Source: Leisingera caerulea DSM 24564
Lineage (GTDB): Bacteria > Pseudomonadota > Alphaproteobacteria > Rhodobacterales > Rhodobacteraceae
Reading direction: 5' to 3'
Assembly: GCF_000473325.1 (NCBI RefSeq)
Contig: NZ_AXBI01000020.1
Span: 500,458 to 564,457, forward strand
Length of the DNA stretch: 64,000 nucleotides
Part shown: positions 40,293-62,536 of the stretch, one piece after another
Position numbering within the stretch: the first letter of the stretch is position 1
How the letters are laid out: each line of letters begins with the position of its first letter
Notes under the pieces: model-generated
What the model saw: the letters and a program-made list of their open reading frames with translations, nothing else
Database searches by the model: none
What the model was told of the DNA's origin: nothing
Made by a program: the position numbers and the translations under genes

Positions 40293-41372
40293 TCAGCGCA
40301 AAGATGTCGTGATCTGCCCTTGCAGCGCAAAAACGCCCGCGACGATGCCCAGCAGGGTGCCGGCGACAGCCAGCATGGCCAGGTTCCGGACCATCCCCAT
40401 GGATGAGGTGATGTTCTTCTGGGATTGATCGATCCAGCCCTTTGACAGCTTGGAGAGCTGGGCGGAGAGATCCTGAGTTTCAGCGTAGATCTTGATGTTC
40501 AAGTTCATTTTACGGTCCGGCCATCCGGTTCCGGCCCGGTGAAGGGCGGCGCCGAAGTTGTTGCCGTTGAGCAGCTGGTTCCGGATCCTGAGAATCCGGT
40601 AGGCCACGTAGGGCGACGCCGAAGGCCGCAGCCGGTCCAGCGCCTGCGAGGCGGGCATGCCGCCTTGGATCAGCATTGACATCGACATCAGGAATGAAAT
40701 GCCGGTGTACATCCGGTATGTCGAATAGAGCGGAAACTTGTCCGCGATGATGCGGCCGCCCCCGACCCAGCGCGGAAAGGAGAAAACGATCAGCGACAGG
40801 GTCGTCACCAGGAACAAGACCGTTGGGGTGATGTAGTTCATCGCGAAGGTGTTGATGAACCGCAGGAAGGCGGAAGGTCCGTACCACTTCTCGATGGGGT
40901 GCATCTCAGCGATCGTGGGAACCACTTCACTGCCGAAATACGTCATGATGCCAAAGAGCACAGCAATCAGAACGAGCGGATATGCAGATCCAACAAGAAT
41001 GGTGGATTTGATTTTTCGCTTTTTCTCCAGCATCTCGAGGTAATCGCGCAGGTTGGCTGCGAAATCGTTCGAGTTCTCAATCGCCTCCAGCACCATGATG
41101 TCTTCCTGCGGAGCCCAGGGCTTCATCGCCTGGCCGAGAGAGGAGCCGTTCTTTTTGCTCTGGATGATGTCATGCAGGATGATCGCCAGGGTCTCTTTTG
41201 GCTTTTTGCCTTCCTCGCTGGCTGTCTCCCACGCCATCTGGATCGCGTCGGTCTGGTTCATGCCCGTTTCGATCAGTGCGATCAATTGGTCATAAAAACC
41301 CGTGCGCTGGCTGTAGCTGAAGAGAAGTTTCGCCAGCTTCTTCTCGATCTTTGAGGGCTTGTGAGGCTTCAT
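40293..41372 (-). CDS. pilR: PilR-type polytopic platform protein (GspF/PilC family)
   Basis: 359 aa. Two T2SSF-like halves: residues about 15-130 with the EAIENSNDFAANLRDYLEMLEKKRK region and a membrane helix (ILVGSAYPLVLIAVLFGIMTYFG), then a second half with SMSMLIQGGMPASQALDRL and a terminal helix (LAMLAVAGTLLGIVAGVFAL). GspF-type proteins form the inner-membrane platform driven by the assembly ATPase. The ATG overlaps the stop of the degenerate ATPase gene by four bases. Confidence 0.9.
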   Translation of the reverse strand: MKPHKPSKIEKKLAKLLFSYSQRTGFYDQLIALIETGMNQTDAIQMAWETASEEGKKPKETLAIILHDIIQSKKNGSSLGQAMKPWAPQEDIMVLEAIENSNDFAANLRDYLEMLEKKRKIKSTILVGSAYPLVLIAVLFGIMTYFGSEVVPTIAEMHPIEKWYGPSAFLRFINTFAMNYITPTVLFLVTTLSLIVFSFPRWVGGGRIIADKFPLYSTYRMYTGISFLMSMSMLIQGGMPASQALDRLRPSASPYVAYRILRIRNQLLNGNNFGAALHRAGTGWPDRKMNLNIKIYAETQDLSAQLSKLSKGWIDQSQKNITSSMGMVRNLAMLAVAGTLLGIVAGVFALQGQITTSLR

Positions 41373-42247
41373 GGCGTATGCTTTCCGGCAGGGGAGATGG
41401 CGTTATTGCGGAGTGTTTCCATCAGCGCAGAGCGCTGCAAAGGATCGGCTGGAAGAGGGCCGAAGGCGTCCAGCACTGCGTTAGCCTCGCAAACCCCTTC
41501 CGCGGCTCTTGCGAGGGCATGGGCAAGAGCGCTCAAGCCCGGTGATGGATAGGACGGCGCCGGGGCGGCGTGCTTGCCGGATCCAGGCAGAACGACAATC
41601 TCGCCAATAACTTCGGCACCATTGATGCCATCTGAGCATGCGTCGCAGCCAGCACCCCTTTCGCGCCAGCTGCCGTGCCCTTCGAAAAGATTTGAATACT
41701 CCCCTGAAACCTTTCCCGCGCCCGGCTGTGAGCAAACAGCGCAAAGCCGGGGCAGTTTCGCGACATGGAAGAGACCGGAGAGCAGGCCTGCACTCCAGGG
41801 ATCAAACCCTTCAGAGAAAAAACCAGCCAGGCGCGCAAGCGCCTTATCAGCAGCACTTCCCTCAATGCTTGCCCACACGCCGATGCCCCAGCGTGCGGCT
41901 TCAGCGCCGGTGCGGGCAAGGAGCGGCGCCCCTTCCGCATCGATCGGGTCCACGATCAATGCATCGGGATCCGAATACATCGCGTAGCGGACAGCTGAGA
42001 CCATTCGGTCACCGCCCGGCTGCATGGGCACGATGCTCTCGGGCGGAGCCCGGAACGCCCCCGGCAGTGCAACGACGGAGACCCGCATGCGGTCATGGGA
42101 GCGCATGCTGCGTGCCACATACTCCAACGCAAGCGTTCGCGCGTCCGCATCCGCACCAGAGACAAGCGCGATACCGGATGAGCGCTGGATCAGCTCTTTT
42201 ATCGCGGCCTCCTGGCTTGGCAGGAACGCCAAATGCAGCTCGGTCAC
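41369..42247 (-). CDS. Degenerate GspE/PilB-type ATPase paralogue
   Basis: 292 aa, GTG start overlapping the pilQ stop; its own stop overlaps pilR. It can be read along the C-terminal ATPase domain of PilQ/GspE: GIALVSGADADART replaces the Walker A GxxxxGK[ST]; DPDALIVDPIDAEGA replaces the Walker B and Asp-box region; and LCAVCSQP with GCDACSDG keep the two CxxC pairs of the GspE zinc site. The P-loop Lys and catalytic Glu are absent, so it cannot hydrolyse ATP. The N-terminal domain of PilQ is missing. Translational coupling on both sides argues that it is a real structural component, not decay. Confidence 0.75.
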   Translation of the reverse strand: MTELHLAFLPSQEAAIKELIQRSSGIALVSGADADARTLALEYVARSMRSHDRMRVSVVALPGAFRAPPESIVPMQPGGDRMVSAVRYAMYSDPDALIVDPIDAEGAPLLARTGAEAARWGIGVWASIEGSAADKALARLAGFFSEGFDPWSAGLLSGLFHVAKLPRLCAVCSQPGAGKVSGEYSNLFEGHGSWRERGAGCDACSDGINGAEVIGEIVVLPGSGKHAAPAPSYPSPGLSALAHALARAAEGVCEANAVLDAFGPLPADPLQRSALMETLRNNAISPAGKHTP

Positions 42248-43866
42248 TTTTCCAGCCTCTTTTTCATTTCCTGTTCCTGTTCCAGAACGGCGACATCGGA
42301 GCGCAGGCGTTCCTGCAGGAACATGAAGTCGCGCTCGTAGGCCGAAAACAGATCCACCTCCTCTTCGACCTCGTTGATGTCGCAGAGACCCGCACCGACT
42401 TTAGAGAGGGCGTGGTGCAATACCGGCAGGCCGCCCAGTCCACCCTCGTCGACAGGCCTCATCCAGTATTCCCGCATCTGGATGCGTTCGCCGCGGGCGA
42501 AGAGCTCAAGCAGCTTCGGGTCGGTGAGAACCGTCTCCGCAACCACTGTCCGGCCGGAGAGGCCAAGTTTGCAGTGGTCGCAGCCGGGGCCGCGGACATA
42601 GAGATCATCGGCTCCCTTTTTGAAAACATTGATAAGCTTTTTCGCAAGCTCTTTGTCCAGCTGACCTTTGGCAACCGCTTCCCTGAAAGTGATGCGGCAG
42701 TGCTCGCACATGACACCGGCCAGACGCTGATAGACCAGGCCGCGGATAACTTGCGGATCCTGCAGCTTCCACGCGGGCACACCAAGGTCGATCATGCGGT
42801 CAAGAATGCCAAGCGCGGAGCCTGCATGGACCGTTGTCCAAAGGGCGTGGCCGGTCATCACCGCCTGAATGGCCAGGTTGCTCGTTTCAGATGAACGCGT
42901 CTCACCCATGACAATGACGTTCGGGTCGGAGCGCAAAGAGGCTTTCATCGCCTCAGTGAAGCCATCGACCCCGTTCTGCCCTGAGCGTACCGGCACCTGA
43001 ATGGCGCCGGGCAGATCCAGTTCGACCGGTTCTTCGATGGTGTACATCGTGATTTCGCGCAGCTTGTCGATGAACATCTTGTTCAGGACGCGCTGCAGTG
43101 TTGTCGATTTACCCGAGGACACTTTCCCGGCCAGGATATACATCCCGTTTGTCCGGCGCCGCATCGTGGCAATGTCGGAAATCTGCTGGGCATTATAGCC
43201 CAGATGGTCGATTTCGATCTCATTCGCCGGCGCTTCATATTTGAGGCGCATGACAAGGGCGCCGCGGCCATCTGATGTTGGCGAATACTGCAGGCGGACC
43301 ATCTCCACCTTGTTGGGCAGAAGGTTCGATTTCGAGGTCAGCGCGCCCTGCTGGAAGCTCAGGTCAGAGGTCGCTCCGCTTTGGTCAGAGGCAACGGCAA
43401 AGGCGGCTTTGATCAGCGCCATCCCCTCATCGGGCTCCCGGAAGCCAAGATCCTTGGCCCGGCCGAACACACGGATCCTGATCTCTGCATACCGCTTGAG
43501 AACGCGGATATGGACGTCGGACGCGCGCTCCGCCGCAGCTTTTGCCAGGATCTCCGAAAGGTCGACCTGCCGGTCCAGCTCCAGTGCGATCGCCTCAGTG
43601 GCGCCCCCGGTCTCATCAGCATAGAGGTCCATGAGGACGGTGGGCTCGACCTCATGGAACTCTTTGATCTCATACCCGCGGCGTGTCGCCGTGGAGAGGG
43701 CCATCTTTACGTCAGCGGACCAGCGGTCGCCGGTCGTGATGATGGCAACCCCGTTTGAGAACAGCGCAACCTGCCTGCGCTGGGAGTCCGCAATCTGTAC
43801 AGGCCCGTTTGGCCGCGTCAGCAGTTCAGCACTCGAAATGCTTTGCTTGAGTATGTCGGTGCTCAT
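42244..43866 (-). CDS. pilQ: PilQ-type assembly ATPase (GspE/PilB family)
   Basis: 540 aa. An N-terminal N2E-like domain is followed by a full ATPase core: AGKVSSGKSTTL (Walker A, about residues 246-257), the TIEEPVEL Asp box, DPNVIVMGETRSSET (Walker B), TTVHAGSA (His box) and the zinc motif MCEHC...GCDHC. All catalytic residues are intact. It powers thin-pilus extension. It lies in the pilN-O-P-Q-R order of IncI plasmids (R64) with a box 30 bases upstream. Confidence 0.92.
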   Translation of the reverse strand: MSTDILKQSISSAELLTRPNGPVQIADSQRRQVALFSNGVAIITTGDRWSADVKMALSTATRRGYEIKEFHEVEPTVLMDLYADETGGATEAIALELDRQVDLSEILAKAAAERASDVHIRVLKRYAEIRIRVFGRAKDLGFREPDEGMALIKAAFAVASDQSGATSDLSFQQGALTSKSNLLPNKVEMVRLQYSPTSDGRGALVMRLKYEAPANEIEIDHLGYNAQQISDIATMRRRTNGMYILAGKVSSGKSTTLQRVLNKMFIDKLREITMYTIEEPVELDLPGAIQVPVRSGQNGVDGFTEAMKASLRSDPNVIVMGETRSSETSNLAIQAVMTGHALWTTVHAGSALGILDRMIDLGVPAWKLQDPQVIRGLVYQRLAGVMCEHCRITFREAVAKGQLDKELAKKLINVFKKGADDLYVRGPGCDHCKLGLSGRTVVAETVLTDPKLLELFARGERIQMREYWMRPVDEGGLGGLPVLHHALSKVGAGLCDINEVEEEVDLFSAYERDFMFLQERLRSDVAVLEQEQEMKKRLEK

Positions 43867-43895
43867 GGCTCACCCAATCGAAAAACAACAATCAA

Positions 43896-43903
43896 TTTTC
43901 GCA
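43896..43903 (+). promoter_or_regulatory. TTTTCGCA box between pilP and pilQ
   Basis: Reads TTTGCGAAAATTG in the pilQ direction, after a hairpin (AGCCCCGTGGC and GCCATGGGGC on the minus strand) downstream of the pilP stop and 30 bases before ATG 43866. The gap is 77 bases. Confidence 0.4.
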
Positions 43904-43943
43904 AATCGCCCCATGGCTTCCGCCACGGGGCTGATAGCCGGGC

Positions 43944-44849
43944 TTACCCGCGGATCTGGATCTTGATCGGCTTGCCGTGGCGCAGAATGGTGATCGAAGT
44001 CTCATCGATCTGCTGGACGATCGTATCGTTGGGCAGCAGATCGCCCTCCCGGACACGGATCCGCTCCTCGCCATGCACGATCACCGCCGAGAAGTTTCCG
44101 GCCAGCCCGTAAACCTCCCGAAGCGACACCGGGATGTCGATCGGGGCCAGAGGGGCCGCCGTCTGGGCGCCGCCGGTATCCAGGGTAGAGGCGCCTTGCA
44201 TGGAGGACAGCTCTTTGCGGATCAGCTCGACAATTTCGGACTGGGAGGGCGCATCCGAGGCGGCAGCCGTCTGCCTGGCGTTTGCTGACGGCGGCGCGAC
44301 ATAGGTGGGATCGAAGAAGCTCGAGCCGTCATCACGGGCCTTCGGGGCCTCGACGACGCTATCCGATGGCCCCTCCAGGGCTTCCTGGATTTCACGCTGG
44401 ATCTGGGCCCTCTTGAGATCGGCATCAAGCAGGATCGGGCTGCCTTCCAGCTGCTTTGCCAGCTCCGGATACATCAGGCGGAAGGCGTCAACGCCCAGCA
44501 GCTCCACCAGCTGTTCGACAGATTTGGCGTGGCTGATCTGCCCTTCCAGGATCAGCCTTTGCTCCATGATGTCGGCCTGCTTGCTGACAATGCCGTAACG
44601 GTCCAGCCGCAGGGTGTCGGCCTTGGCCACCTCATCCACGGTGGCCTGAAAATCGCGTTCGACGTGTGCCGGCGCGCCTTCCGTTTCGGCCGCGGCAGCG
44701 TCCCGAACACTGCCATCGATCACGATCTCCGGTCCGGAGGGCGGATTTTCTGAGGACGGCTCCTGCGCGTTTACGGGCAGCTGGAACGCCAGCAAGGCCA
44801 GCGCAGAGATGCCAATCGGATTGAGGTATTTCATTTTCGCATTCTTCAT
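43944..44849 (-). CDS. pilP: PilP-like periplasmic pilus protein
   Basis: 301 aa from ATG 44849 (GAGG upstream; a TTG at 44864 is less likely). Signal peptide (ISALALLAFQLPVNAQ), then a long acidic region, a helical segment, and a PilP-type beta domain at the end: LREVYGLAGNFSAVIVHGEERIRVREGD, then VQQIDETSITILRHGK. In IncI plasmids PilP links the PilO inner-membrane protein and the PilN secretin. Confidence 0.8.
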   Translation of the reverse strand: MKNAKMKYLNPIGISALALLAFQLPVNAQEPSSENPPSGPEIVIDGSVRDAAAAETEGAPAHVERDFQATVDEVAKADTLRLDRYGIVSKQADIMEQRLILEGQISHAKSVEQLVELLGVDAFRLMYPELAKQLEGSPILLDADLKRAQIQREIQEALEGPSDSVVEAPKARDDGSSFFDPTYVAPPSANARQTAAASDAPSQSEIVELIRKELSSMQGASTLDTGGAQTAAPLAPIDIPVSLREVYGLAGNFSAVIVHGEERIRVREGDLLPNDTIVQQIDETSITILRHGKPIKIQIRG

Positions 44850-44892
44850 GACGGCCTCGGTCAATTCGTGATGGTTTTATTCCCCGGTCCGC

Positions 44893-46443
44893 TTAACGCG
44901 GAGGAGGAGGCAGCATAGGCGGATGGTAGGCTTTGATCGCCAAATCCCAGATCCCGGTCTGCATATTGTATAGCAGAGCCTGCGGGACGAGCGCCGGTAC
45001 ATCCTCCAGGATATCCCCAAAATTCGTCAGCCTGTATGGGGCCGAAATACGGATGTCGTGCGAGTTGAAAACCGGATGCGTGCGTGCCGCTTTCTGGTTT
45101 TTGTCATTCGGCCGAATGGCCAGCGGAGCACCCAGGACCTGGAAGCGCTCACGCAGCCGCTCCTCGATCAGGACGCCCGACCAGGGTTTTTCCTGGAAGG
45201 AGATCTCATTCACGCTGAATTCAAAGGTCCGTCCCCAGGACGCGGTTTCACCGTTGGCGGACAGGCGCGGTGCTGGTTCGTCCGCGGGGATGGCCGCGCG
45301 AAGCCAGCTGAAGCTTCCGCCTGAGCGGCTCCAGCCGGTGCTGATCGTCCCCTTGCCTTTGTCAAACGAGCAGGAGATGGGCTGGGCCTCCCAGCCGGGG
45401 ATGAGAATGGCGGACTTGGCCATCTCCTTCATGCAGACTTCGATAAACCCGCCAATCTCAACCGATTTGTGCCAGGGCACATCATGAGGGGAGAAGGTCA
45501 TTCCCTGCTCAGCCCGGCGGCGCAGTTCCCTCAGCTCTCGTTCCTGTTCAGCCCTTTGATGTTCGATGAAGAAGTACCCGCCGGCGGCGGCGGCCAAGAG
45601 AACGCTGCCCAGCAGGATCCGCGGCAGATTGTCTTTGATCGGGGTGCAGGATTTCAGCTTGCTGCCGGAACGCAGATCGACGAGCTCGTGCAGCTTCTCA
45701 CGGCGTGTCTGCGGAATTCCCCACTCCAAAGGCGCATAGACGGCGGTCCAGTCCGGGGCCTCCAGGTCAGCAAGGAAGATCTGCTCCGCTGCTTCCCGGG
45801 AGCGCAGGATCTGATCGTCGAAAACCTTGCCGTCCCGGATCGATCCGACCCACCAGGTGTCGCTGGCCTCACTGAGCTGGAACACACCGATCCACCGGGG
45901 GCCGGTCACTTCGGGGGGCAGCATCGTGACAAGCGCACGCATGCCAGGCACCTGGCCCTGATCAGGGCTGCCCAAACCGATGAAACCGTTGTCCAGGGTG
46001 TCGGTGTAGAGTTTGAAATCGACGGTGGCCTGGGTCGGGTCGTCCCGGGTCAGATCGTTCATCTCCTCGATCTTATCCTTGACGGCCGTATCCTCTTCGA
46101 TCGAGGTCCAGGTCAGTCCGATCGCGGCTTTCTTGGTTCCGAAGGAAAGAACGCCCGCATCTTCAAGGAAGATGTCATCCGATACCTGCTCACTGCTGCG
46201 GCCAGCCTGCGGCTTGAGGCGCTGGAGCCATGCGAGCTTGCCCGAAGCGGCGTCTTTGGAGACGTCTTCTGCGGGCGGATCTTCATAGAGACTTTCGCCG
46301 GGAGCACTTTCAGGGCTCTCTTCCGTTTCGGAAGCTGCGGAGCGCCGCCAATTGAACTTCCGCAAGAGCGCAGAAAGCCCGGACGGCGCCGCGCCGTCAG
46401 CCTTCTGGTCAATGTTCTGGGTTTCTTCATTGTCGAAATTCAT
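44893..46443 (-). CDS. pilO: PilO-like bitopic pilus protein
   Basis: 516 aa. A cytoplasmic N-terminal domain of about 275 residues (with LKHDE-rich segments and PILSY-like strands) is followed by a single membrane helix (ILLGSVLLAAAAGGYFFI) and a coiled-coil, then a periplasmic domain to the end with an EISFQEKPW-type strand set. The length and topology fit PilO of the R64 thin pilus. It lies between pilN and pilP. Confidence 0.8.
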   Translation of the reverse strand: MNFDNEETQNIDQKADGAAPSGLSALLRKFNWRRSAASETEESPESAPGESLYEDPPAEDVSKDAASGKLAWLQRLKPQAGRSSEQVSDDIFLEDAGVLSFGTKKAAIGLTWTSIEEDTAVKDKIEEMNDLTRDDPTQATVDFKLYTDTLDNGFIGLGSPDQGQVPGMRALVTMLPPEVTGPRWIGVFQLSEASDTWWVGSIRDGKVFDDQILRSREAAEQIFLADLEAPDWTAVYAPLEWGIPQTRREKLHELVDLRSGSKLKSCTPIKDNLPRILLGSVLLAAAAGGYFFIEHQRAEQERELRELRRRAEQGMTFSPHDVPWHKSVEIGGFIEVCMKEMAKSAILIPGWEAQPISCSFDKGKGTISTGWSRSGGSFSWLRAAIPADEPAPRLSANGETASWGRTFEFSVNEISFQEKPWSGVLIEERLRERFQVLGAPLAIRPNDKNQKAARTHPVFNSHDIRISAPYRLTNFGDILEDVPALVPQALLYNMQTGIWDLAIKAYHPPMLPPPPR

Positions 46444-46505
46444 CGTTGCATCCTCGTATCGCAGCCGGTCCGGCTGAGCGGGGCCGGGCGAACCCGGCCG
46501 CCCCC

Positions 46506-48083
46506 TTAGTGTGCGGCTTTGGACCGGTCGATAATGCGCGGCGTGATCATCATGACCGTTGCAACGCGTTCGTTCGTCTTCTCCGAGTGACCGCCCCAGG
46601 CAGACAGGCCGTTGGCGTTTTTCTTCTTCTCGGTGGTGATGCGCTCGCGCTCAAAGCCCGCCAGGATCAGCGTCTGGCCATTCTCAACCACGGTCTGCTG
46701 TTCAAAGGACGTCTTGGAGACGACCGGCTGCTGGATCGCATCATTGCCTTCGCCGAAGGTGCGCATGTCGTTGAGCTCCGACAGGCGGACCGTGTACTGC
46801 ACCATGATATCGCGGTTGTTCATGATGCGCGGGAACAGCTGCATCTGGAAGCCGGTGGTCACGATATCCGGGGTGCGGATGATGCGGTCATCGCCGTCTT
46901 CATCCTCTTCGATCGTGATCTCCTTGAGGTACGGGGTCTCGGTGACCACCTCGATCGGCGCTGCGCGGTTGTTCGACGTCGTGGCACCGGCGCGGTTTTT
47001 GACGGATACGCGCCCCTGCGTGGACAGCGCATTTACAACCGCGCCAACGGAGACATCACCGGACAGGATGCCGATGTTGTAATCGCCAAGGGCGCCGCCC
47101 GAGAACACGCTGGAGCCGAATTTCACCGCGCCGTCGGTCGTGTTGGAAATGGCCGCGCCCAGATCCAGGCCGAACTTGTTCTCATCGTTGAGGGAAACGG
47201 TCATGACCTGCACGTCGAAGCTGATCTGCTGGCTGATGGTGCCATTCAGCTGCTCGATATACTCCTGCACCCGGTTCTGGTCGGCCACTTTGGCAGTGAC
47301 GGTCACCAGGCCGGTGGTTGAACCGATCGAGACCTGTGCGCCTTCTCCCACCAGCCCGCTCATTGCGGCCTGCACTTCCGACCAGACATCAGAGTTGATC
47401 GAGGAGGTCGACGTGATGTTGTTGGAGCCGATCGAGGAGGTCTGGCCTGAGGTCGAAGGCAGCGCTGTGATCTGGTACTTCCGCGTCACGTAATCGCGGA
47501 AGATCACCCTCCCGTCCGAATAGGACCACTCAACCTCGAAGGTCGAAGCAATCCGGTTCAGAACGTCGGAGAGAGAGCCGCGCAGGTCAGGCCGCATGGT
47601 GATGCCGGGCTCTTCAGATGCGCGTGATGACCGGCCGCCGGCAACCGCATTGCGCGGCGCAGGGCGGCCGGTGCTGTCGGTGCTCGACGTGGCTTCGTCC
47701 GCGGAAATGACGCTGTTGTCATTCGCAGAGGACAATTTGCCGGTCGGACCCAGGGCAAGAATATGCGGGATGCCGGTGATGTCCGCCATGCGCTGAATGA
47801 TCTCGTTCAGACCCATGGGGTCGCGGCTCTGCAGCTTGATCGCACCCGGCGCTTCCAGGTGGGACGGCAGCAAGGCCGAAGCGTTGTGGCGCTCGGGGGA
47901 GGCGCCGACAAAGATGCCATCTGAGAACTGCGAACCGCCTGCACGTTTGGCGGTGCGTCCGCCAAGGCGCTCGAGACCCATTTTCACGCCCGTCTCATAA
48001 CGGCTGATTTTCTCATCCTCGCCCGTCGAGCAAGCGGTGAGCGCGATCAGCGACACAGCGCCAAAAGACAACAGTTTTTTCAT
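46506..48083 (-). CDS. pilN: PilN-type secretin lipoprotein
   Basis: 525 aa. A lipobox LTAC follows the signal (MKKLLSFGAVSLIALTAC). Secretin N-domain is seen in residues about 160-330, and the C-terminal secretin core shows the NKFGLDLGAAIS, VVTETPYLKEI, ITTGFQMQLFPRI and NRDIMVQYTVRLS strands. It would form the outer-membrane pore for the thin pilus. Confidence 0.9.
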   Translation of the reverse strand: MKKLLSFGAVSLIALTACSTGEDEKISRYETGVKMGLERLGGRTAKRAGGSQFSDGIFVGASPERHNASALLPSHLEAPGAIKLQSRDPMGLNEIIQRMADITGIPHILALGPTGKLSSANDNSVISADEATSSTDSTGRPAPRNAVAGGRSSRASEEPGITMRPDLRGSLSDVLNRIASTFEVEWSYSDGRVIFRDYVTRKYQITALPSTSGQTSSIGSNNITSTSSINSDVWSEVQAAMSGLVGEGAQVSIGSTTGLVTVTAKVADQNRVQEYIEQLNGTISQQISFDVQVMTVSLNDENKFGLDLGAAISNTTDGAVKFGSSVFSGGALGDYNIGILSGDVSVGAVVNALSTQGRVSVKNRAGATTSNNRAAPIEVVTETPYLKEITIEEDEDGDDRIIRTPDIVTTGFQMQLFPRIMNNRDIMVQYTVRLSELNDMRTFGEGNDAIQQPVVSKTSFEQQTVVENGQTLILAGFERERITTEKKKNANGLSAWGGHSEKTNERVATVMMITPRIIDRSKAAH

Positions 48084-50882: not shown

Positions 50883-52340
50883 ATGTCCCAGCAGCAACAG
50901 CAGCCGGGCGGCGAGGACCAGGAATTCATCAAGCTGGGCATCTGCCTGCTCATATGCGTGATCATTCTTTGGGGAGTGCTTGCAACCCAGGAGTATCGGC
51001 TCAATGCGGTCATTGGTGCTGTAACCTGGGTCCATATCCTCCCATTTGCCCTGGCAGGCAAATACGTTCCCTTCCTCGCTGACATCCCCTTCCTTGGGAA
51101 TTGGCTCTTTGGCCCCGCCATGCAGGCGATGACATTTCTGGAGCGGGGCGGTTATGCCGTCATGGAGCCCCCTCAGCGCACCGCCATCCTCGCGGCGGGC
51201 GGGCGCAGTGCAACGGTCATTTACGGTGCCGTCCTGTCGTGGATTGCCGTTCGCGGCAAAGACTTCCGCGTCGACCAGAAGTATCGCACTCTGCACACCC
51301 TGGAATCCATGATCCGGGTCCAGTCCGAGGATTGGGTAACCTCCCGCATTGCGCGGCATGTAAACCCTCTCAAGGGCAAGGAAATCGATGCCCGCCGAAT
51401 CGCGGAGGCCGTCTCAGGGCGTGCCAATGCCGATACGGCAATGCCGGGCAATCTGCTGCCCAAGCGGGTCATTATGATGCAGCCCGGCACTTGGAACCGG
51501 GCGCTGCGGCCTGAGGAATGGCTGATCAGCAATGGGCTGGCCTTTGATCCCGACCGCTTCAAGGAGCTGTCCGATCCGGAGCGCAACGCCAAGGTTACGG
51601 ACTTCGAGTTCAAGGGAAGCTGGGAGCAGCTGGATCTTGAAGAGATCTCCGAAGTGCTGTCCGTACAGCTCCGCTCCCCCTGGAAAGGACCTGAGCAGCT
51701 GCGCCCTTCGCTGCGGGCCGTATATGCTGTCATGGCCCTTTTCTATGACTATGATATCGACGGCGGCAACAAGCTCCTCAATGAGCTTGCATTGCTTGCA
51801 GACGGCACCGGCGTCAGGCGCGGCGGCATGGACTTCGCGATCCAGTATGAGGCTGGAATGATGGCGAAGGTCGACAAGATTGCCTTGGGCCGTCAGGGCA
51901 AGATGCTGGCAAAATGCGCGCAGCACCATGCATGGGTGGAAAGCGCCTTCCCAACGCTCATGGCAGTGGCACGCAAGGACCGCGGCGTGCTGCCGCCGGC
52001 CGCGTTCCTGTGGCTGAAGGTTGAAGACCGGTTGCTCTGGTACATCCTGAACAATGTGGGCAATGATGCTGTGATGGTCGAGGCCGCCGGGGCGATCGCC
52101 CACTCGCGCGCTGAAACTCAGATCTCCAAGCCCTTGTTCCGCCCGGCTGTGTATCAGGCGGCACGGGCGCTGCTCGAAGATTATCTCGACATGACCCCCG
52201 AACGGATCGAAAGCCGCCGGGACAAGGCAATCCGCCAGCGCTCCCCGGGAGACCAGCTCAACATGCTGCGCGATGAGATCATGTTCGGGGATGCGCCTGA
52301 CCAGGCTGAAGAGCATTTGGACGTTGAGGAAGACGAATGA
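50883..52340 (+). CDS. dotM: DotM/IcmP (TrbA)-type coupling complex protein
   Basis: 485 aa. Two N-terminal membrane helices (LGICLLICVIILWGVLATQ and VIGAVTWVHILPFALAG) and a third near residue 95-115 are followed by a large cytoplasmic domain, as in DotM. The GPEQLRPSLRAVYAVMALFYDYDI and ALLADGTGVRRGGMDF regions, and the HHAWVESAFPTLMAVARKDRG helix, fit the family. DotM binds the DotL coupling ATPase and delivers substrates to the channel. ATGA overlap with pilU follows. Confidence 0.88.
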   Translation: MSQQQQQPGGEDQEFIKLGICLLICVIILWGVLATQEYRLNAVIGAVTWVHILPFALAGKYVPFLADIPFLGNWLFGPAMQAMTFLERGGYAVMEPPQRTAILAAGGRSATVIYGAVLSWIAVRGKDFRVDQKYRTLHTLESMIRVQSEDWVTSRIARHVNPLKGKEIDARRIAEAVSGRANADTAMPGNLLPKRVIMMQPGTWNRALRPEEWLISNGLAFDPDRFKELSDPERNAKVTDFEFKGSWEQLDLEEISEVLSVQLRSPWKGPEQLRPSLRAVYAVMALFYDYDIDGGNKLLNELALLADGTGVRRGGMDFAIQYEAGMMAKVDKIALGRQGKMLAKCAQHHAWVESAFPTLMAVARKDRGVLPPAAFLWLKVEDRLLWYILNNVGNDAVMVEAAGAIAHSRAETQISKPLFRPAVYQAARALLEDYLDMTPERIESRRDKAIRQRSPGDQLNMLRDEIMFGDAPDQAEEHLDVEEDE

Positions 52341-53060: not shown

Positions 53061-53573
53061 ATGATGTCCCTGATACCAGCCATGCTGGTCGTAACATTCA
53101 CCATCACCATTGCCTTCGCTTCATTCGGAGAGAGGGCGGTGGACGATCGTGGCACGGTGATGGGGTCGAACCTGACCCTTCATCACAAGCAATCCGTTGC
53201 CCAGGCAATGGAGGATGGCCGGACATCGGGTTACATCACAAGCGCACTGGGCGGTCCTTTCCGGCAGATGGGCGACTGGACAACCCAGGTGGTTTCATCC
53301 GGGCACCGGACCGTTGTCGTCACTTATCTTCCGGATGGTATCCAGGGCGCCGAGCAAAGTGCCCTCAAGGCATTTTCAGAGGTGACCCCTCTCAGCTTGC
53401 GCAAGCTGCCCGAGAGTTACGCGGGGAACTACAAGTATTCCGAAACCGGGACCGGAGGCACAATCGGGCGCGGGGATTTCTCAGATATGGTTCTGCCGAT
53501 CCCGGCAAACGGGCCGGCAATTATCACGGTGATAAATCAGGATTACACCGGCCCCGGAGGTCCCGGCGCTTGA
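53061..53573 (+). CDS. pilM: PilM-type pilus protein
   Basis: 170 aa. An N-terminal hydrophobic helix (SLIPAMLVVTFTITIAFASF) is followed by a periplasmic alpha-beta domain with VVVTYLPDGIQG and ALKAFSEVTPLSL, matching PilM of the IncI thin pilus. The stop overlaps the first available pilV start. Confidence 0.7.
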   Translation: MMSLIPAMLVVTFTITIAFASFGERAVDDRGTVMGSNLTLHHKQSVAQAMEDGRTSGYITSALGGPFRQMGDWTTQVVSSGHRTVVVTYLPDGIQGAEQSALKAFSEVTPLSLRKLPESYAGNYKYSETGTGGTIGRGDFSDMVLPIPANGPAIITVINQDYTGPGGPGA

Positions 53574-53650
53574 GAAACAAGGCTGAATGGCGGGTCATGA
53601 CGAGCATGCAGGTAAAAAAGGCGTTCTTCGAGGATGCCGGGAGACAAAAA

Positions 53651-55255
53651 ATGAAGCACGAAAAAGAAAATGCGGATTTCAAAATCAACACCCAGCGGCA
53701 GCGGGGCAGCATGCTGCTGGAAGCGGCGCTCTCGATCTCGGTGCTTCTCGGTCTGGTCGGCTATGTCGCCCAGGCCAACCAGCAGGAGCTTGAGAAACAG
53801 AAACGCGTGATGGTCGCATCGGAGCACGATGTCATCGTCACCGCGGCCCGCAGCTTTCTGCAGCAGCGCTACCACGATGTGGTGATGGATCTGTTCGATG
53901 CTGCCGATACAGGCGGGCAGGGGGTCATGACCTACAGCCTGAGCGATCTGGCTGATGCCGGCTTCCTGCCTGCGTCCTATTCGGGCGGCATTCTGAAGAC
54001 GGCCTATGGGCAGGACTATGCGCTTCTCGCCCGCGCAGTTGACCGCAGCGACGGCGCCCAGCCGCAGGCAACGATGGGATACGCGGATATGGATCCGCTG
54101 GCATCCGGCGAAATCGATGTGGCTCTGACGGATGGAGACCCCTCCAACGGTGAGCTGGAGATCGAATCCATCCTGGTCTCTCACGGGGGAGACAGCATTC
54201 CGATCGGTGCTGCAGGTGATGTCATCGGCCAAATGAAGGCGTCTTTCGGGGGCTTCGTTGCAGACAGCGATGTGGCCAGCGGCGCCTATGAGAACTTCAC
54301 GATGGACATCTCCGGGTTCAATGCTCTGCCCGAGTACCCGTCCCGCGGCCGCTTTGCCAGCGTTGTGTCGCTGTCCAGCTACGGGGTTCTGGGCTCTGAA
54401 AGCGGCACGGAGCCCGCCATCGACCCGTTCCTGCGCTGTGACGGGGTGAGCATCGCCTCGGACGATTACGCAGACTGCATCAGCTCAAACGAGGTCTACA
54501 CCGACATCGTTCTTCGACCCTTTGACAGCGACAATGACGGTACCGCTGACGTGCTTCCCGCGCTTCGCAATGTCACCATGCTGGACTGTGCGGACGGTTC
54601 CGGCTCGGGCAATCTGAATGAGTTCACCGTGGACTGTGCGACCACCCGCCTGACTGGTGACTTTGTGTCTCTGGGCGACAATGCTGACATCGGCAAAATG
54701 ACGGTCCGCGCGGATGGCATCGGCTTCGATGGGGACGATGTTCTGAAACGGCAGAACATCAACGGCACTGACGAAAACATTCTGAATGCCGATCGCCTCA
54801 CCCTTGCGGGTGTCAATGGCGGCCAGGACTTCTCTGAAGCTGTTACCTCCAGCCGCGTTGTCCGGGCCCGGGACACCATCGCCAAGCCGTCCTGCCCGGC
54901 CACCACGATTGATGGTGCAAACCCCATGGAGCCGCGCATCTATGTGACGCCGGCCGCCTATTCGGATCCGCGCGGACGCCCCGTTGTGGGTGTGCGGGCC
55001 TTCGCGGAAGATCTCGGCACAGACTGGCGGGTGCGGATGATGATCTTCGTGGGGCAGGATTTCTGCACGAACGACCCCTCCAGCCCCATGATGGTCAGCT
55101 CCACATCCTTCCGGGCGAACGGTTCACCGATCGGCGGAAACTGCACGACTTACACCGGTAATGTTGTGGATACCTACCGGGGTGACGGCAGTGCGGACGT
55201 CTGGGAGCTGGAAGGTGATTTCGGTGCAGCTGTTGCTCAAACCCGGTGCTACTGA
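53651..55255 (+). CDS. pilV: PilV-type tip adhesin/minor pilin (shufflon N-domain family)
   Basis: 534 aa from ATG 53651 (GGGAG at proper spacing; ATG 53597 and TTG 53570 lie upstream). The leader ends QRQRG before SMLLEAALSISVLLGLVGYV; the mature +5 residue is Glu. Residues about 20-380 follow the constant region of PilV (QQELEKQKRVMVASEHDVI, ADAGFLPASY, the FDSDNDGTADVL region). The C-terminal 150 residues are the part replaced by the shufflon in R64, but there are no inverted segments here. It decides recipient recognition at the pilus tip. Confidence 0.85.
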   Translation: MKHEKENADFKINTQRQRGSMLLEAALSISVLLGLVGYVAQANQQELEKQKRVMVASEHDVIVTAARSFLQQRYHDVVMDLFDAADTGGQGVMTYSLSDLADAGFLPASYSGGILKTAYGQDYALLARAVDRSDGAQPQATMGYADMDPLASGEIDVALTDGDPSNGELEIESILVSHGGDSIPIGAAGDVIGQMKASFGGFVADSDVASGAYENFTMDISGFNALPEYPSRGRFASVVSLSSYGVLGSESGTEPAIDPFLRCDGVSIASDDYADCISSNEVYTDIVLRPFDSDNDGTADVLPALRNVTMLDCADGSGSGNLNEFTVDCATTRLTGDFVSLGDNADIGKMTVRADGIGFDGDDVLKRQNINGTDENILNADRLTLAGVNGGQDFSEAVTSSRVVRARDTIAKPSCPATTIDGANPMEPRIYVTPAAYSDPRGRPVVGVRAFAEDLGTDWRVRMMIFVGQDFCTNDPSSPMMVSSTSFRANGSPIGGNCTTYTGNVVDTYRGDGSADVWELEGDFGAAVAQTRCY

Positions 55256-56430
55256 TGTTCGGACGTTCATCCAGCAAACCGCGCCCGGCACCACCAGCGG
55301 CAATGCCGCAGGCCGCATCCCGACCACCGGCGCCGCCCGCGGCGCCGCAACCCCCTGCAGGTGCGGCCGCCAGGCCATCCCAGGGGCTGGCCCCTCAATT
55401 GATGCCGGAAGGCGACCTCGCCAAGATCCTGTCTGCCTACAACTTCATTGACCTCTACATATCAAACGATCCCCTGGCGCCGATCATGGCTCGCGGACTG
55501 AGGGCAGCAACCATCGGCCTGAGCGCTTTCGGCAAGGGGCTCGTGCGGCTCCCTGAGGTGCTCTACGATGACGCGACACGGCTCTACGAGGTGATCGACC
55601 GCAAATGGAAGCATTCCGACTACAAGCGGGAGTTCACAGTCGTTCACGATGAACGGTCATACCGCTGCGCTCTGATCGCTCCGCCGGATTTCCGGTTTAC
55701 AGAGGGGCTGGAGCCGTTGCGGGAAAACGAGGTGCGATGGTGTATCCGGCAGGTGAGTGGTGCCGCGCCCAGTTTTGAAGAACAGGGTCTGTCCGCAGAA
55801 GCCCGGCAGAACATCCAAGACCTGATCATCCGCAGGGGGCTGGTGATCTGTTCCGGCCCGTTTGCGTCCGGCAAGACGACGCTTGCCTCATCGATCGTGG
55901 ATCACTGGGTCGCGGAAAGCCGGGACGTTGGCATCACATTGGAGGATCCGCCGGAAATCCCGCTGGCGCGCGTGACTGAGGACAGGGGCGTGATCTATCA
56001 GATCGACCTCATGGACCGCTCGGTCCGCGATGCTATCAAACACGCCCGCCGCTGGTCCCCGCGATACGTCTTCCTCGGGGAGGTCAGGACGGGCGACGTT
56101 GCGAGCGAGCTGCTGCATATGGCAATCTCTGGGCCGCTTGCCATCTGCACGATCCACGCATCCGACCCTGTACAGGCCATCGTGTCGCTCTTCCGCTTCG
56201 CATCGTCGGCGATGTCTGAAGATATGGCGAAGGACATGATCTCCGCAGCTTTGCAGCATGTTTTCCATCAGGAGATGGTGAGCGGGCGGGTGCTGATGAA
56301 GCAGGCCAAAATCCATGGCGTCGACAATCACCTCATCCGCTCGAAGATCAAAGCAGGCAACTTCCGGGGTCTCTACGAGGACTTTGAGCGTCAGGTTATC
56401 AACAGCAATAGCCCGGCCAGGGCAGGGTGA
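55255..56430 (+). CDS. Traffic ATPase (PilT/VirB11-like) in the pilV operon
   Basis: 391 aa from ATG 55255, which overlaps the pilV stop by one base. A Pro/Ala-rich N-terminal 40 residues precede a mixed domain and the ATPase core: ICSGPFASGKTTLA (Walker A), ITLEDPPEIP (Asp box), VFLGEVRTGDVA (Walker B) and CTIHASDP (His box). All catalytic residues are intact. IncI plasmids have PilQ and TraJ but no PilT-like retraction ATPase, so this one may retract the thin pilus or serve the coupling step. It is the third active traffic ATPase in the window. Confidence 0.8.
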   Translation: MFGRSSSKPRPAPPAAMPQAASRPPAPPAAPQPPAGAAARPSQGLAPQLMPEGDLAKILSAYNFIDLYISNDPLAPIMARGLRAATIGLSAFGKGLVRLPEVLYDDATRLYEVIDRKWKHSDYKREFTVVHDERSYRCALIAPPDFRFTEGLEPLRENEVRWCIRQVSGAAPSFEEQGLSAEARQNIQDLIIRRGLVICSGPFASGKTTLASSIVDHWVAESRDVGITLEDPPEIPLARVTEDRGVIYQIDLMDRSVRDAIKHARRWSPRYVFLGEVRTGDVASELLHMAISGPLAICTIHASDPVQAIVSLFRFASSAMSEDMAKDMISAALQHVFHQEMVSGRVLMKQAKIHGVDNHLIRSKIKAGNFRGLYEDFERQVINSNSPARAG

Positions 56431-58951: not shown

Positions 58952-61900
58952 ATGGCCGAGCATATACAGAAGTCACAATCCCTGCCGTCCGTGAAGGATC
59001 AGGTCGATCCCGGAATGGTCCGGCGCCCTATCAAGTCCCCGATGCAATCCTTCAGGGATACGATGAGCGCCAAGAGCACGGTCATGATGACCTTGTCGAT
59101 CTCGGTTTCGGTTATGGCGCTGTATTCTCCGAGCTGGATCGGTGTTCTGCCTGCTTCCCTCGGCTACTACATGTGGGCGTCATCGAAGAAATACCGTTTG
59201 CCCTTCAAGGTTCCCCAAAGCTGGGGCGGGACCGACTTCGGCGCCCCCAAGCCGGGCGGCAGCGGTTACGCCAAGGCGTCTGGGATCCTCTACTTCGGGC
59301 GCGACCAGCAAAGCCAGGAGGAGCTTTGGATCGAGAACGGTGATGCGCGCCGGCACGGGTTCTTCCTGGGAACCACCGGCTCGGGCAAGGCGCTGCCGCT
59401 TGATACCCCGGTCCTTACGCCGCGGGGATGGGTGCTGAACGGGGATCTCCGGCCGGGCGATGAAGTTTGCCACCCTCTGGGCGGGACTTCCCGGATTGAC
59501 TCGATCCACCCTCAGGGCGTGATCCCGGCGGTGCGGATGTGGTTCTCTGACGGCCGCCATGCAGACTGCTCGCTCGACCACCTCTGGCATGTGCGCGCCC
59601 GGCCCAGGGTCAATGTCGATCGCAAGCTGGGGCTGGCGGAAGGGCTGGGTTTCGGTGACAGCGGGAAAAATATGACCGCTGGCGACATCGGCATCCTGCA
59701 CGGCATGCACGGGGATAAACTGCACATCGAAATCCCCCTGGCTGTCCCGCATCAGGGCATGAGCATTCCGGATGGCTCCGGCATCCTGTCGGAGGAACAT
59801 GCGCAGCGGGGCGCGGCGGCGGGCCTCCATCACCTGGATTACATGCCGTCGCTGTTTGGCACGCCGGCCGAGCGGATCGCCTTCCTCAAGGCCTGGTCCC
59901 GCAACGCTGACATCGGTGTCGCGATTGAAAAGCACGGCGTCAGGCTGACCGGTCTGCGCACGCCGGATGCCAAGATCCTGAAGCAGCTTGTCTGGTCCCT
60001 GGGCGGTGTTGCGACCGTCTATGTCCGCGGCAGCACCAAGAAGCGCGATCGGGGCGTGGATCTTGTTGTGATGTTTGAGGGCATCGGAGATCTGTGGCCC
60101 CAGGCATCCGGCTGCAAGTTCCCTGGCGAGGGGCTGGAGATCACCGAGGTCGAGCGGCTCCATGATGATGTGGAGATGTCCTGCATCAAGACGGACCGGG
60201 AAGACGGGCTCTACGTGATGGAAAACCACGTGGTCACCCACAACACCGAACTCCTGCTTGGCATCGTGTCACAGACGCTGATGTGGTCATCAGGCTTTCT
60301 CTTCATCGACGGCAAGGGGACAACCGAATTCTATGCGCGCGCCTGGACGCTCGCGAAACGCTTCGGCCGCGAGGATGACGTCCGTGTTCTGAACTTCACG
60401 GACGCGGGCGGCGACCCGGATGCTCCGGCGGGCGGGCCCGATGTTCAGTCCAACACCCTGAACCCGTTCTCCAAAGGCGGCGCCGACCAGCTCATGAACC
60501 TCATCGTGGGCCTGATGGGGGATGCAGGCCAGGGCAACGACATGTGGAAGAGCCGCGCCATGTCACTGGTTACCGCGGCCATGAAGGCGCTTGTGCAGAT
60601 GCGCGACGCCGGTGACATCCTGCTCGATGTGCAGGCAATCCGGGACTTCCTCCCGCTCGGCGAAGGGTTCAAGAAAGAGCTTCTGAAGGGCAAGCCGATC
60701 CGCACCATCGAGGATGTTCCGGAAGAGGCGTGGCACGAATTGCGCACGCGGGGCGGGATGATCGAGCTGTACCTGAGGGCTATGAAGGGGGACTTTTCGA
60801 ACTCTTCCCGACTCGCCTTAAAGGCGTTCTTTGATACGCTTCCCGGCTTCAATATGAGCAAGGCATTGAAGGGTGATCCGCAGGACGGGAAGGCCTCAGA
60901 GCAGTACGGCTTCCTTTCGATGCAATTGACTAAGCCATTGGGATCATTGGCAGATGACTACGGTCACATCTTCCGGACCCCTCTTGGAGAGGTCGATATT
61001 GACGACGTTGTTCTGAACCGCCGCATCCTGATTGTACTCCTCCCTGCGTTGCAGAAGGCGCCGGAAGAAATGCAGATGTGCGGGAAGATCGTGGTCAACC
61101 TCGTGAAGATCATGATGGGTAATGCCTCCGGCTCGGCGCTCCATGGCTCGAAGCAGGAGATCGTGGATTCCAAGCAGACACGCGCCCCATCCCCCTACAT
61201 CGTCGTGCTCGACGAGGCGGGCTATTACATGGTCAAGGGCATTGACGTGATGATGGCGCAGGCCCGCTCGCTCGGCTTTATGATCATCGTTGCCGGTCAG
61301 GATATGGCGGCAATGCAGGCGATCTCCCCGCAGATCGCCGAAACCGCATCAGCAAACGCATCGATCGTTGCTGCCGGCAAGACGATGGATGCGGACAAGA
61401 CGGCCGGGTTCATTCAAAAACTGTTCGGCCGGACGCAGGTTTCCGTGACATCTGGGTACACTGCGCAATCCGGCATGCTCGGAACCAAGTGGGTCGACCG
61501 GATGGATGCCTCCTTCCAGGAGGTCGAGAAGGTGCGGCTGGACGAGCTGCAGCACATGATGGAAGGGGAGTTCTATTTCCTCTTCAACGGTACCATCGTG
61601 AGGGTGTCCACGTTCTACATCGGCGGGGACTTCGCCGGATCGTTCTCAGTGAACAAGTTCCTGAAGGTGCGGGGCCCGACTGACCGGGTTCCGGGCCTCG
61701 ACCAGACCGTCGAAATCAACTTCATCGGATCCATGATGGATACGTCAGAGAAGATCCTCGGCTTTGCGCGCAGCCCGGAGAGTGCAGAAGACCTCGATGC
61801 GCTGTCCGACACGGTGACGGATGTTGCCCGGATCGCGCAGGGGCTGCTCTGGAAGGCAGGAAAACATGCCGCGAATCCGCGCAACATTCACAATGCGTGG

Positions 61901-62536
61901 CTTGGCGGCCTGCTGGCCGGTGAAGCTGCCGAAGTGCCCGAGTATGAGGATGAGGCAGTCGACCGCGGCGGCAACTGGGAAGACGAACTTGATGTCGACC
62001 TGATGGACGAGCTCGGGATCCGGGGTGATTTCGATGAGCTTGATCCTGAAGCTGTGGATCAGCGGAACATGCGCCGGCGGATGGCGGAGATGGAAATCGA
62101 CGGGATTGATCTGGAGGAGGATGACGAAGAGGTCGGGGACGTGGTTTCCGGTCTGCACCGCGCTGCGCGCGGGCGCACGCCGCAAGAGCGGCACGGAGGC
62201 ATGATCGACCTGCTCATTGCCCAGGAGCGGGCAAAAGAGAAGGCTCAAACCAACAGGGAGATCGCGGAGAAGCTGCGGGACGAGGAGGCAGAGCGGCTTG
62301 ATGAAGAGCGCGAGAACCGCCGGTCCATGGGGGAATTCTTCAGTTTCGTGGCGGAGAACAGCTCCCGGTTTGCGAAAATCTTCGCGGAAGAGGATGTCGA
62401 CGGGGAACTCGGCCTGGAGATCCTGCGGCGGTCCGGAAGTGTGAAGCCGGTGCCCCTCAATTCCATGCAGGACCCGGCCTTCGTAAGCGAAGCGGTCGAC
62501 ATGCTGGAGAAGGCCATTTCCACGGAGCAGAAATGA
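58952..62536 (+). CDS. dotL: DotL/IcmO (TrbC)-type coupling ATPase precursor, interrupted by an intein
   Basis: 1194 aa precursor; 909 aa after splicing. Two N-terminal membrane helices (VMMTLSISVSVMALYS, LPASLGYYMWASS) precede the RecA-like VirD4/TraG-type ATPase domain. Walker A is GTTGSGK (residues 140-146) continuing TELLLG after the intein, and Walker B is IVVLDEAG (about 750-757). A Glu-rich C-terminal tail, as in DotL, would bind adaptor proteins. It recruits relaxosome and protein substrates to the channel with DotM. Within the extein, the LGTTGSGK and TELLLG halves join without a gap. The stop overlaps the next gene. Confidence 0.9.
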   Translation: MAEHIQKSQSLPSVKDQVDPGMVRRPIKSPMQSFRDTMSAKSTVMMTLSISVSVMALYSPSWIGVLPASLGYYMWASSKKYRLPFKVPQSWGGTDFGAPKPGGSGYAKASGILYFGRDQQSQEELWIENGDARRHGFFLGTTGSGKALPLDTPVLTPRGWVLNGDLRPGDEVCHPLGGTSRIDSIHPQGVIPAVRMWFSDGRHADCSLDHLWHVRARPRVNVDRKLGLAEGLGFGDSGKNMTAGDIGILHGMHGDKLHIEIPLAVPHQGMSIPDGSGILSEEHAQRGAAAGLHHLDYMPSLFGTPAERIAFLKAWSRNADIGVAIEKHGVRLTGLRTPDAKILKQLVWSLGGVATVYVRGSTKKRDRGVDLVVMFEGIGDLWPQASGCKFPGEGLEITEVERLHDDVEMSCIKTDREDGLYVMENHVVTHNTELLLGIVSQTLMWSSGFLFIDGKGTTEFYARAWTLAKRFGREDDVRVLNFTDAGGDPDAPAGGPDVQSNTLNPFSKGGADQLMNLIVGLMGDAGQGNDMWKSRAMSLVTAAMKALVQMRDAGDILLDVQAIRDFLPLGEGFKKELLKGKPIRTIEDVPEEAWHELRTRGGMIELYLRAMKGDFSNSSRLALKAFFDTLPGFNMSKALKGDPQDGKASEQYGFLSMQLTKPLGSLADDYGHIFRTPLGEVDIDDVVLNRRILIVLLPALQKAPEEMQMCGKIVVNLVKIMMGNASGSALHGSKQEIVDSKQTRAPSPYIVVLDEAGYYMVKGIDVMMAQARSLGFMIIVAGQDMAAMQAISPQIAETASANASIVAAGKTMDADKTAGFIQKLFGRTQVSVTSGYTAQSGMLGTKWVDRMDASFQEVEKVRLDELQHMMEGEFYFLFNGTIVRVSTFYIGGDFAGSFSVNKFLKVRGPTDRVPGLDQTVEINFIGSMMDTSEKILGFARSPESAEDLDALSDTVTDVARIAQGLLWKAGKHAANPRNIHNAWLGGLLAGEAAEVPEYEDEAVDRGGNWEDELDVDLMDELGIRGDFDELDPEAVDQRNMRRRMAEMEIDGIDLEEDDEEVGDVVSGLHRAARGRTPQERHGGMIDLLIAQERAKEKAQTNREIAEKLRDEEAERLDEERENRRSMGEFFSFVAENSSRFAKIFAEEDVDGELGLEILRRSGSVKPVPLNSMQDPAFVSEAVDMLEKAISTEQK
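59390..60244 (+). other. In-frame intein (class 3 features) inside dotL Walker A
   Basis: 285-aa intervening sequence, residues 147-431 of the precursor. Block A: ALPLDTPVLTPRGW, with Ala instead of Cys or Ser at position 1. Block B: DCSLDHLWHV with Trp66. Block F: EMSCIKTDREDGLYV with Cys265. Block G: HVVTHN, followed by Thr as the first extein residue. This W, C, T set is the signature of class 3 inteins, which use the block F Cys as first nucleophile. The central part (FLKAWSRNADIG, then VRLTG...LVWSLGG) resembles a LAGLIDADG endonuclease but lacks intact acidic residues, so homing activity is probably lost. Confidence 0.9.

Follow-up and report, generated by a model that had tools for sequence, protein, structure and literature searches.

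The question raised by this locus is how a conjugation ATPase could work with a run of 285 codons set into the middle of its Walker A motif (P-loop). The window analyzed here is a 64,000-nucleotide stretch of Leisingera caerulea DSM 24564 (contig NZ_AXBI01000020.1, positions 500,458 to 564,457), and the gene in question (58952..62536 on the + strand, as are all features located below unless stated otherwise) encodes a DotL/IcmO/TrbC-type coupling ATPase as a precursor of 1194 amino acids (aa), or 909 aa without the insert. An earlier note on this DNA, made from the sequence alone, had proposed that the insert is a class 3 intein, possibly in a new host and at a new site. The best explanation of the whole, which we hold at a probability of about 0.93, is that the motif is occupied by a class 3 intein with an intact splicing domain and a decayed LAGLIDADG homing endonuclease, and that splicing restores the P-loop. 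The anatomy, the conservation of catalytic residues, the fold model, the continuity of empty sites, purifying selection and endonuclease decay were computed here; the reaction steps and the occurrence of splicing are taken from published class 3 chemistry.

Identification of the Class 3 Intein

The insert is in frame and falls at 59390..60244 (precursor residues 147-431, Ala1 to Asn285), exactly as the earlier note had it, and it splits the Walker A motif of the host, GTTGSGK/T, between Lys and Thr. With a slash for each junction the sequence reads GTTGSGK/ALPLDTPV...VVTHN/TELLLG, where GTTGSGK (59369..59389, precursor residues 140-146) is the N-extein half of the motif and the first residue after the insert, Thr+1 (60245..60247), would serve as the second nucleophile and, once spliced, as the Walker A Thr. 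The insert has 64.0% GC, and the flanking host parts have 60.3% and 59.9%. Alignments and the fold model place the N-terminal part of the Hint splicing domain, with blocks A and B, at 59390..59599, including His64 (59579-59581) and Trp66 (59585-59587, in DHLW). A central domain follows at 59678..60124 (intein residues 97-245), and the C-terminal part of the splicing domain, with blocks F and G, carries Cys265 (60182-60184, in SCIKTD) and Thr283-His284-Asn285 (60236-60244) within 60125..60244.

The Trp, the Cys and the Thr at +1 from which the earlier note had argued are all present. Its Trp-Cys-Thr triad was right as to class and mistaken as to one residue, since the triad Thr of class 3 inteins is that of block G:5, distinct from the +1 residue (PMC5222942; PMC5050341), which makes it Thr283 here. 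Because G:5 and +1 are both Thr in the window, the class assignment stands. The class definition places Trp at block B:12 and His at B:10 (PMC5222942). The window intein has both, together with Cys at F:4, Thr at G:5 followed by His-Asn, Thr at +1, and Ala at residue 1, where no nucleophile (Cys, Ser or Thr) is present. His64, Trp66, Cys265 and the THN end are invariant in 27/27 aligned inteins, including the block F Cys on whose conservation the earlier note had staked its proposal.

Structural comparisons agree with this assignment. When the whole open reading frame (ORF) was searched against the PDB, it matched class 3 DnaB inteins (6bs8, E=2.6e-5; 6rix, 0.0036; 6riy, 0.0043), and the alignment begins at query residue 147, the first residue of the insert, which argues that the resemblance is not by chance. 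A profile of 23 inteins (that of the window and 22 relatives) gave E-values of 1.1e-11 for 6riz, 6.4e-10 for 6bs8 and 4e-9 for 6rix. The fold model of the intein is confident, has a Hint fold and matches class 3 DnaB inteins, with solved inteins covering residues 1 to 285. No curated family model in Pfam or NCBIfam matched the insert itself; over the 27 inteins, Pfam found LAGLIDADG_3 in three, Hint_2 in three, Hom_end in two and Hom_end_hint in one, and NCBIfam assigned seven to PRK07773, a model of replicative DNA helicases. Residues, fold and PDB matches all bear out a class 3 intein at the Walker A Lys/Thr of a DotL-type ATPase. By every sequence criterion examined the insert is such an intein, and it looks able to splice.

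Decay of the Homing Endonuclease

Judged from its letters and predicted fold, the central domain is clearly the relic of a decayed LAGLIDADG endonuclease, as the earlier note had suspected. In the window intein the first LAGLIDADG motif region is missing and the acidic residues of the second motif are replaced, a result that depends on the alignment. Pfam gave no LAGLIDADG match for this intein. With the central domain alone, Foldseek returned nothing at E<=0.001 (best 6.2e-3), and the first 16 rows, none of them within that threshold, were all LAGLIDADG proteins. The endonuclease motifs are gone in 18/18 complete Rhodobacteraceae inteins of the species scan described below, and self-driven homing of the intein is probably no longer possible.

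Distribution of the Intein and of Empty Sites

One genome per species was scanned for 84,980 species, and the best 80 of 315 relatives were kept. The intein is found in 23 of these 80, in 19 by script and in four by eye (L026-L028 and L036, the last with the C-terminal part of the intein only). The other 57 are empty at the same codon and align continuously across the site, which is the behavior that the earlier note had expected of homologues lacking the insert. Among the Rhodobacteraceae loci of the scan (20 by their titles; NCBI now splits the family into Paracoccaceae and Roseobacteraceae) the intein is present in 19/20, one of the 19 being partial and L041 being empty, a ratio biased upward because one of the two scan patterns includes the intein's own THN end. 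A whole-protein search of 394 genomes of the family found DotL in six genomes and seven gene copies, five of them with the intein; it overlaps the species scan at G034 (L023), G103 (L032), G146 (L020) and G253 (L027 and L041). The metagenome-assembled genome CAR3_bin_1 holds an intein-bearing (L027) and an intein-free (L041) DotL gene in one bin. Across the class, the intein profile matched 4/385 genomes at E<=1e-6, the L. caerulea genome among them, and an order-wide search matched 1/390, this same genome, the rows shown being mostly of the same family. In another genome of the family (G025), locus L003 has at about position 1501 an intein-like start after QVGK, in a frame that appears terminase-like by eye and meets an early stop; it is perhaps a broken intein gene.

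Plasmids and phages carry similar elements. There are 28 plasmid records that match the intein at E<=0.1, and all five that were examined (L004-L008) have the insert between the P-loop Lys and Thr. Phage records matching the intein number 441, with 39 matching over >=80% of its length, and at the three loci examined (L098, L099 and L100) the insert lies between GK and T, with a THN/T end, in helicase or terminase hosts. The loci of Methylorubrum extorquens AM1, which has a 365-codon intein, and of M. hispanicum, which is empty, are 85% and 86% identical in DNA on the two flanks, and the break between them lies no more than a few bases from the Lys/Thr codons. Plasmid record L008 (NZ_CP064357, 4001-5014), from Miltoncostaea oceani, encodes an ATPase of the type II/IV secretion family with a like intein at GEMGAGK/T.

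Inheritance and Selection

The host tree, built by a quick method and subject to long-branch warnings, held 26 intein-bearing and 14 empty hosts (the latter chosen from 58), and on it the intein changes state three times, in Rhodobacteraceae, in Methylorubrum and in Pseudomonas/Xanthomonas. This pattern is most simply read as three gains; losses may be involved too, as change counts do not separate gain from loss. On the intein tree the Methylorubrum intein pairs with that of the TraD protein of plasmid pKAZ5 (support 88), which speaks for separate gains.

For the 19 Rhodobacteraceae genes, 11 of 16 splits are common to the host and intein trees, and 1000 label shuffles gave three at most. The window and L018 are sisters on the intein tree (100/99) and not on the host tree (100/98), and the placement of L022 also conflicts (intein tree 91/94, host tree 100/100). 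Compared along the gene, L018 is closer to the window in the N-extein, in the intein and at host residues 780-839 and 900-959, closer to L019/L021 at host residues 540-659 (window precursor numbering), and roughly equal elsewhere. Recent independent homing was considered as the source of the window/L018 conflict and rejected, since this comparison places the conflict at host residues 540-659; the mosaic pattern suggests recombination of the host gene instead.

Ratios of nonsynonymous to synonymous substitution rates (dN/dS), rough because dS is above 1, and saturated, in many cases, were obtained for both intein and extein in 12/15 pairs: for the window and L018 they are 0.117 and 0.122, and in the other 11 pairs the intein values (0.07-0.45) lie above those of the extein (0.02-0.16). 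Within the intein, eight pairs gave 0.06-0.25 for the splicing domain and 0.15-0.69 for the central domain. On these values the splicing domain is under purifying selection, and the Rhodobacteraceae intein looks to have been co-inherited largely with its host gene after the endonuclease decayed. These two points together look to be the fresh contribution of this case, and a modest one.

Proposed Mechanism and Alternative Explanations

Because 285 residues part Lys146 from the Walker A Thr, the precursor has no normal P-loop. By class 3 chemistry, Cys265 of block F would attack the Lys146-Ala1 peptide bond to give the class 3 branched intermediate, the N-extein would be transferred to Thr+1, and cyclization of Asn285 followed by an acyl shift would join GTTGSGK to TELLLG, leaving an ATPase of 909 aa with a standard Walker A motif. 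In Rhodobacteraceae the intein would have passed on mostly along with the host gene, and its persistence may follow from the fact that the P-loop is regained only by splicing or by an exact deletion. The L. caerulea genome gave a single match to the host protein and a single match to the intein profile; since no second ATPase copy was found, splicing would be required for the transfer system to work there.

A split P-loop in the unspliced precursor would also suit a conditional switch, in which an environmental cue such as oxidation of Cys265 slows or stops the splicing of DotL and so gates transfer post-translationally. We consider this doubtful. In its favor, the intein is found in 19/20 Rhodobacteraceae loci even though none of its 18 complete copies there retains the endonuclease motifs, and oxidation that involves the block F Cys, partnered by Cys48, inhibits Msm DnaBi1, a class 3 intein at a like site (PMC6195587). 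That redox case is a precedent and not evidence for the window intein. Persistence is explained more simply by the consideration that imprecise loss would kill the ATPase, the 19/20 ratio carries the upward bias of the THN-containing scan pattern, and Cys60 of the window intein is absent from L027 and from the Pseudomonas/Xanthomonas mini-inteins. The fuller proposal, that the intein has been kept since the ancestor of the Rhodobacteraceae clade because its splicing serves transfer as a post-translational gate on the coupling ATPase, for example a redox-sensitive one via Cys265, seems to us slightly less probable again.

A splicing-dead fossil in a transfer system that is itself in decay would be in keeping with the clear decay of the endonuclease part and with the accessory nature of the system, which is indicated by 0/20 same-genus genomes with a match to the host protein. 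This explanation is nevertheless very unlikely, as the intein retains the full set of class 3 residues, purifying selection is seen in the splicing domain (dN/dS 0.06-0.25) with low values in the extein too (0.02-0.16, in the 12/15 pairs with a value), the host ORF is intact and other transfer genes are recognizable.

Splicing by a class 1 or class 2 route, started by residue 1 or by Thr+1 and not by the block F Cys, is hardly credible for the window intein. One observation does weigh against a strict reading of the class 3 criterion for residue 1: Ser occupies this residue in 4/27 aligned inteins (L032-L035), and the first position is thus not inert throughout the group. Ala1 rules out class 1 in the window, Cys265 and Trp66 are invariant in all 27, and in the class 3 intein of IcmO from Burkholderia vietnamiensis (Bvi) a Cys at +1 is unable to substitute for the block F Cys (PMC5222942). 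Ala1 and the invariance of the block F Cys were the grounds for rejecting both mechanisms. The four inteins with Ser1 are from Rhodobacteraceae (L032 on the same contig as L010) and retain the full class 3 triad, with Ser at +1 in L032, L033 and L035 and not in L034; they may be a naturally occurring blend of class 1 and class 3 traits.

The reading of the insert as just one more DotL domain and no intein, which its lack of a curated family match might suggest, has a negligible chance of being correct and was rejected on fold and site, given a Walker A motif cut between Lys and Thr, solved inteins aligning over model residues 1 to 285, and intein motifs on both edges.

Host Gene and Surroundings

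The reading frame at 58952-62536 is intact, with 1194 aa plus a stop. In the PDB search the host part matches IcmO (6sz9, E=5e-112). The TrbC model NF041447 reaches E=1.6e-98 but scores 331 bits against a curated cut-off of 800, and TraG-D_C of Pfam (E=1.5e-6, 28.6 bits) passes its cut-off of 22. On these matches the host protein is a DotL/IcmO/TrbC-type coupling ATPase. A DotM-like gene (50883..52340; DotM_C, E=1.6e-39) would share a type I-like transfer system with it, and upstream of the host gene lies a DotB-like secretion ATPase gene (55246..56430; T2SSE, E=1.4e-17), named DotB from type and context. A shufflon-type protein encoded at 53570-55255 on the strand of the host gene scores 25.3 bits, under the family cut-off. 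These neighboring genes fit a type I-like transfer system, as do those for a secretin, a PilO, two T2SSE proteins and one T2SSF protein on the opposite strand of the window. Beside the transfer genes, at 40293-48083, lies a thin-pilus-like gene set.

Comparison With Known Inteins

Placing this case among known inteins corrects the claim of a first discovery. The earlier note was aware of none described in coupling proteins of the DotL/TrbC type, but a paper of 2016 had presented the class 3 intein of Bvi IcmO and its splicing in E. coli (PMC5222942), and a new host was rejected on that report. The Bvi intein shares with that of the window its class and a host of the same family, IcmO with DotL/TrbC, and its plasmid-borne state (B. 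vietnamiensis G4) is listed here among the likenesses. It differs in being a 142-aa mini-intein with Cys at +1, and its site, ARSLGF/CITFA, maps to window precursor residues 776/777, away from Walker A, where the host ARSLGF (61262..61279, precursor residues 771-776) is without an insert. The host family was therefore known and the insertion site is different.

The site is not new either, as Lys/Thr inteins occur in public coupling ATPases of Methylorubrum, Pseudomonas and Xanthomonas and in TraD of pKAZ5. Insertion at the invariant Lys/Thr pair of the P-loop has been termed "classic" (PMC5050341). Among the papers listed by searches of an open-licence library, none was recognized as describing an intein in Walker A of DotL, TrbC or TraD. 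The DotL/TrbC-type ATPase of the M. extorquens AM1 megaplasmid (NC_012811, L004) has the host family, the Lys/Thr junction and the class 3 residues in common with the window, and M. hispanicum has an empty near-copy of this locus; the AM1 intein differs in its 365 aa, in having both LAGLIDADG regions and in being only 26% identical. It is presumably the InBase entry "Mex-TrbC". In Pseudomonas and Xanthomonas (plasmid loci L005 and L007, contigs L037-L040) host family, junction and class 3 residues are again the same, whereas the inteins are minis of 145-150 aa without the central domain and their hosts form a group of their own on the host tree. TraD of pKAZ5 (L006, KR827394, 4001-5107) is also a coupling ATPase with the same class 3 residues and GTTGSGK/A...THN/T, but it belongs to an F-type transfer system, its extein is 20% identical and its intein has 369 aa with LAGLIDADG motifs. 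This plasmid is IncC-typed, and five more Enterobacterales plasmids (H81-H85) match with equal query range and identity.

Further from the window in host, large phages have P-loop inteins that match over their full length in helicases of Pseudomonas phage EL (L098, GSGK site, 28% identity) and Mesorhizobium phage Cp1R7A-A1 (L099, GLGK, 25%) and in the terminase of Vibrio phage USC-1 (L100, QQGK, 30%). The mycobacterial DnaB-1 class 3 inteins (6bs8, 6rix, 6riy) share the triad, the Hint fold and, in Msm and Mle, a Walker A Lys/Ser site (PMC5222942; PMC6195587); they are mini-inteins in a replicative helicase, and their block B has DxxH, against SxxH in the window intein. The Msm site reads FGVGK/STLGL (PMC5222942).

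Taken together, P-loop class 3 inteins recur at one codon in conjugation and secretion ATPases, with three state changes among the DotL hosts examined, one TraD and one type II/IV secretion-family ATPase. A single gene offers empty sites, a two-motif intein (Methylorubrum), relics (Rhodobacteraceae) and minis (Pseudomonas, Xanthomonas) for comparison, a test bed for the standing question of why inteins persist after endonuclease decay. The window intein adds one more member to a known kind, and its host family had already been found to include an intein-bearing protein.
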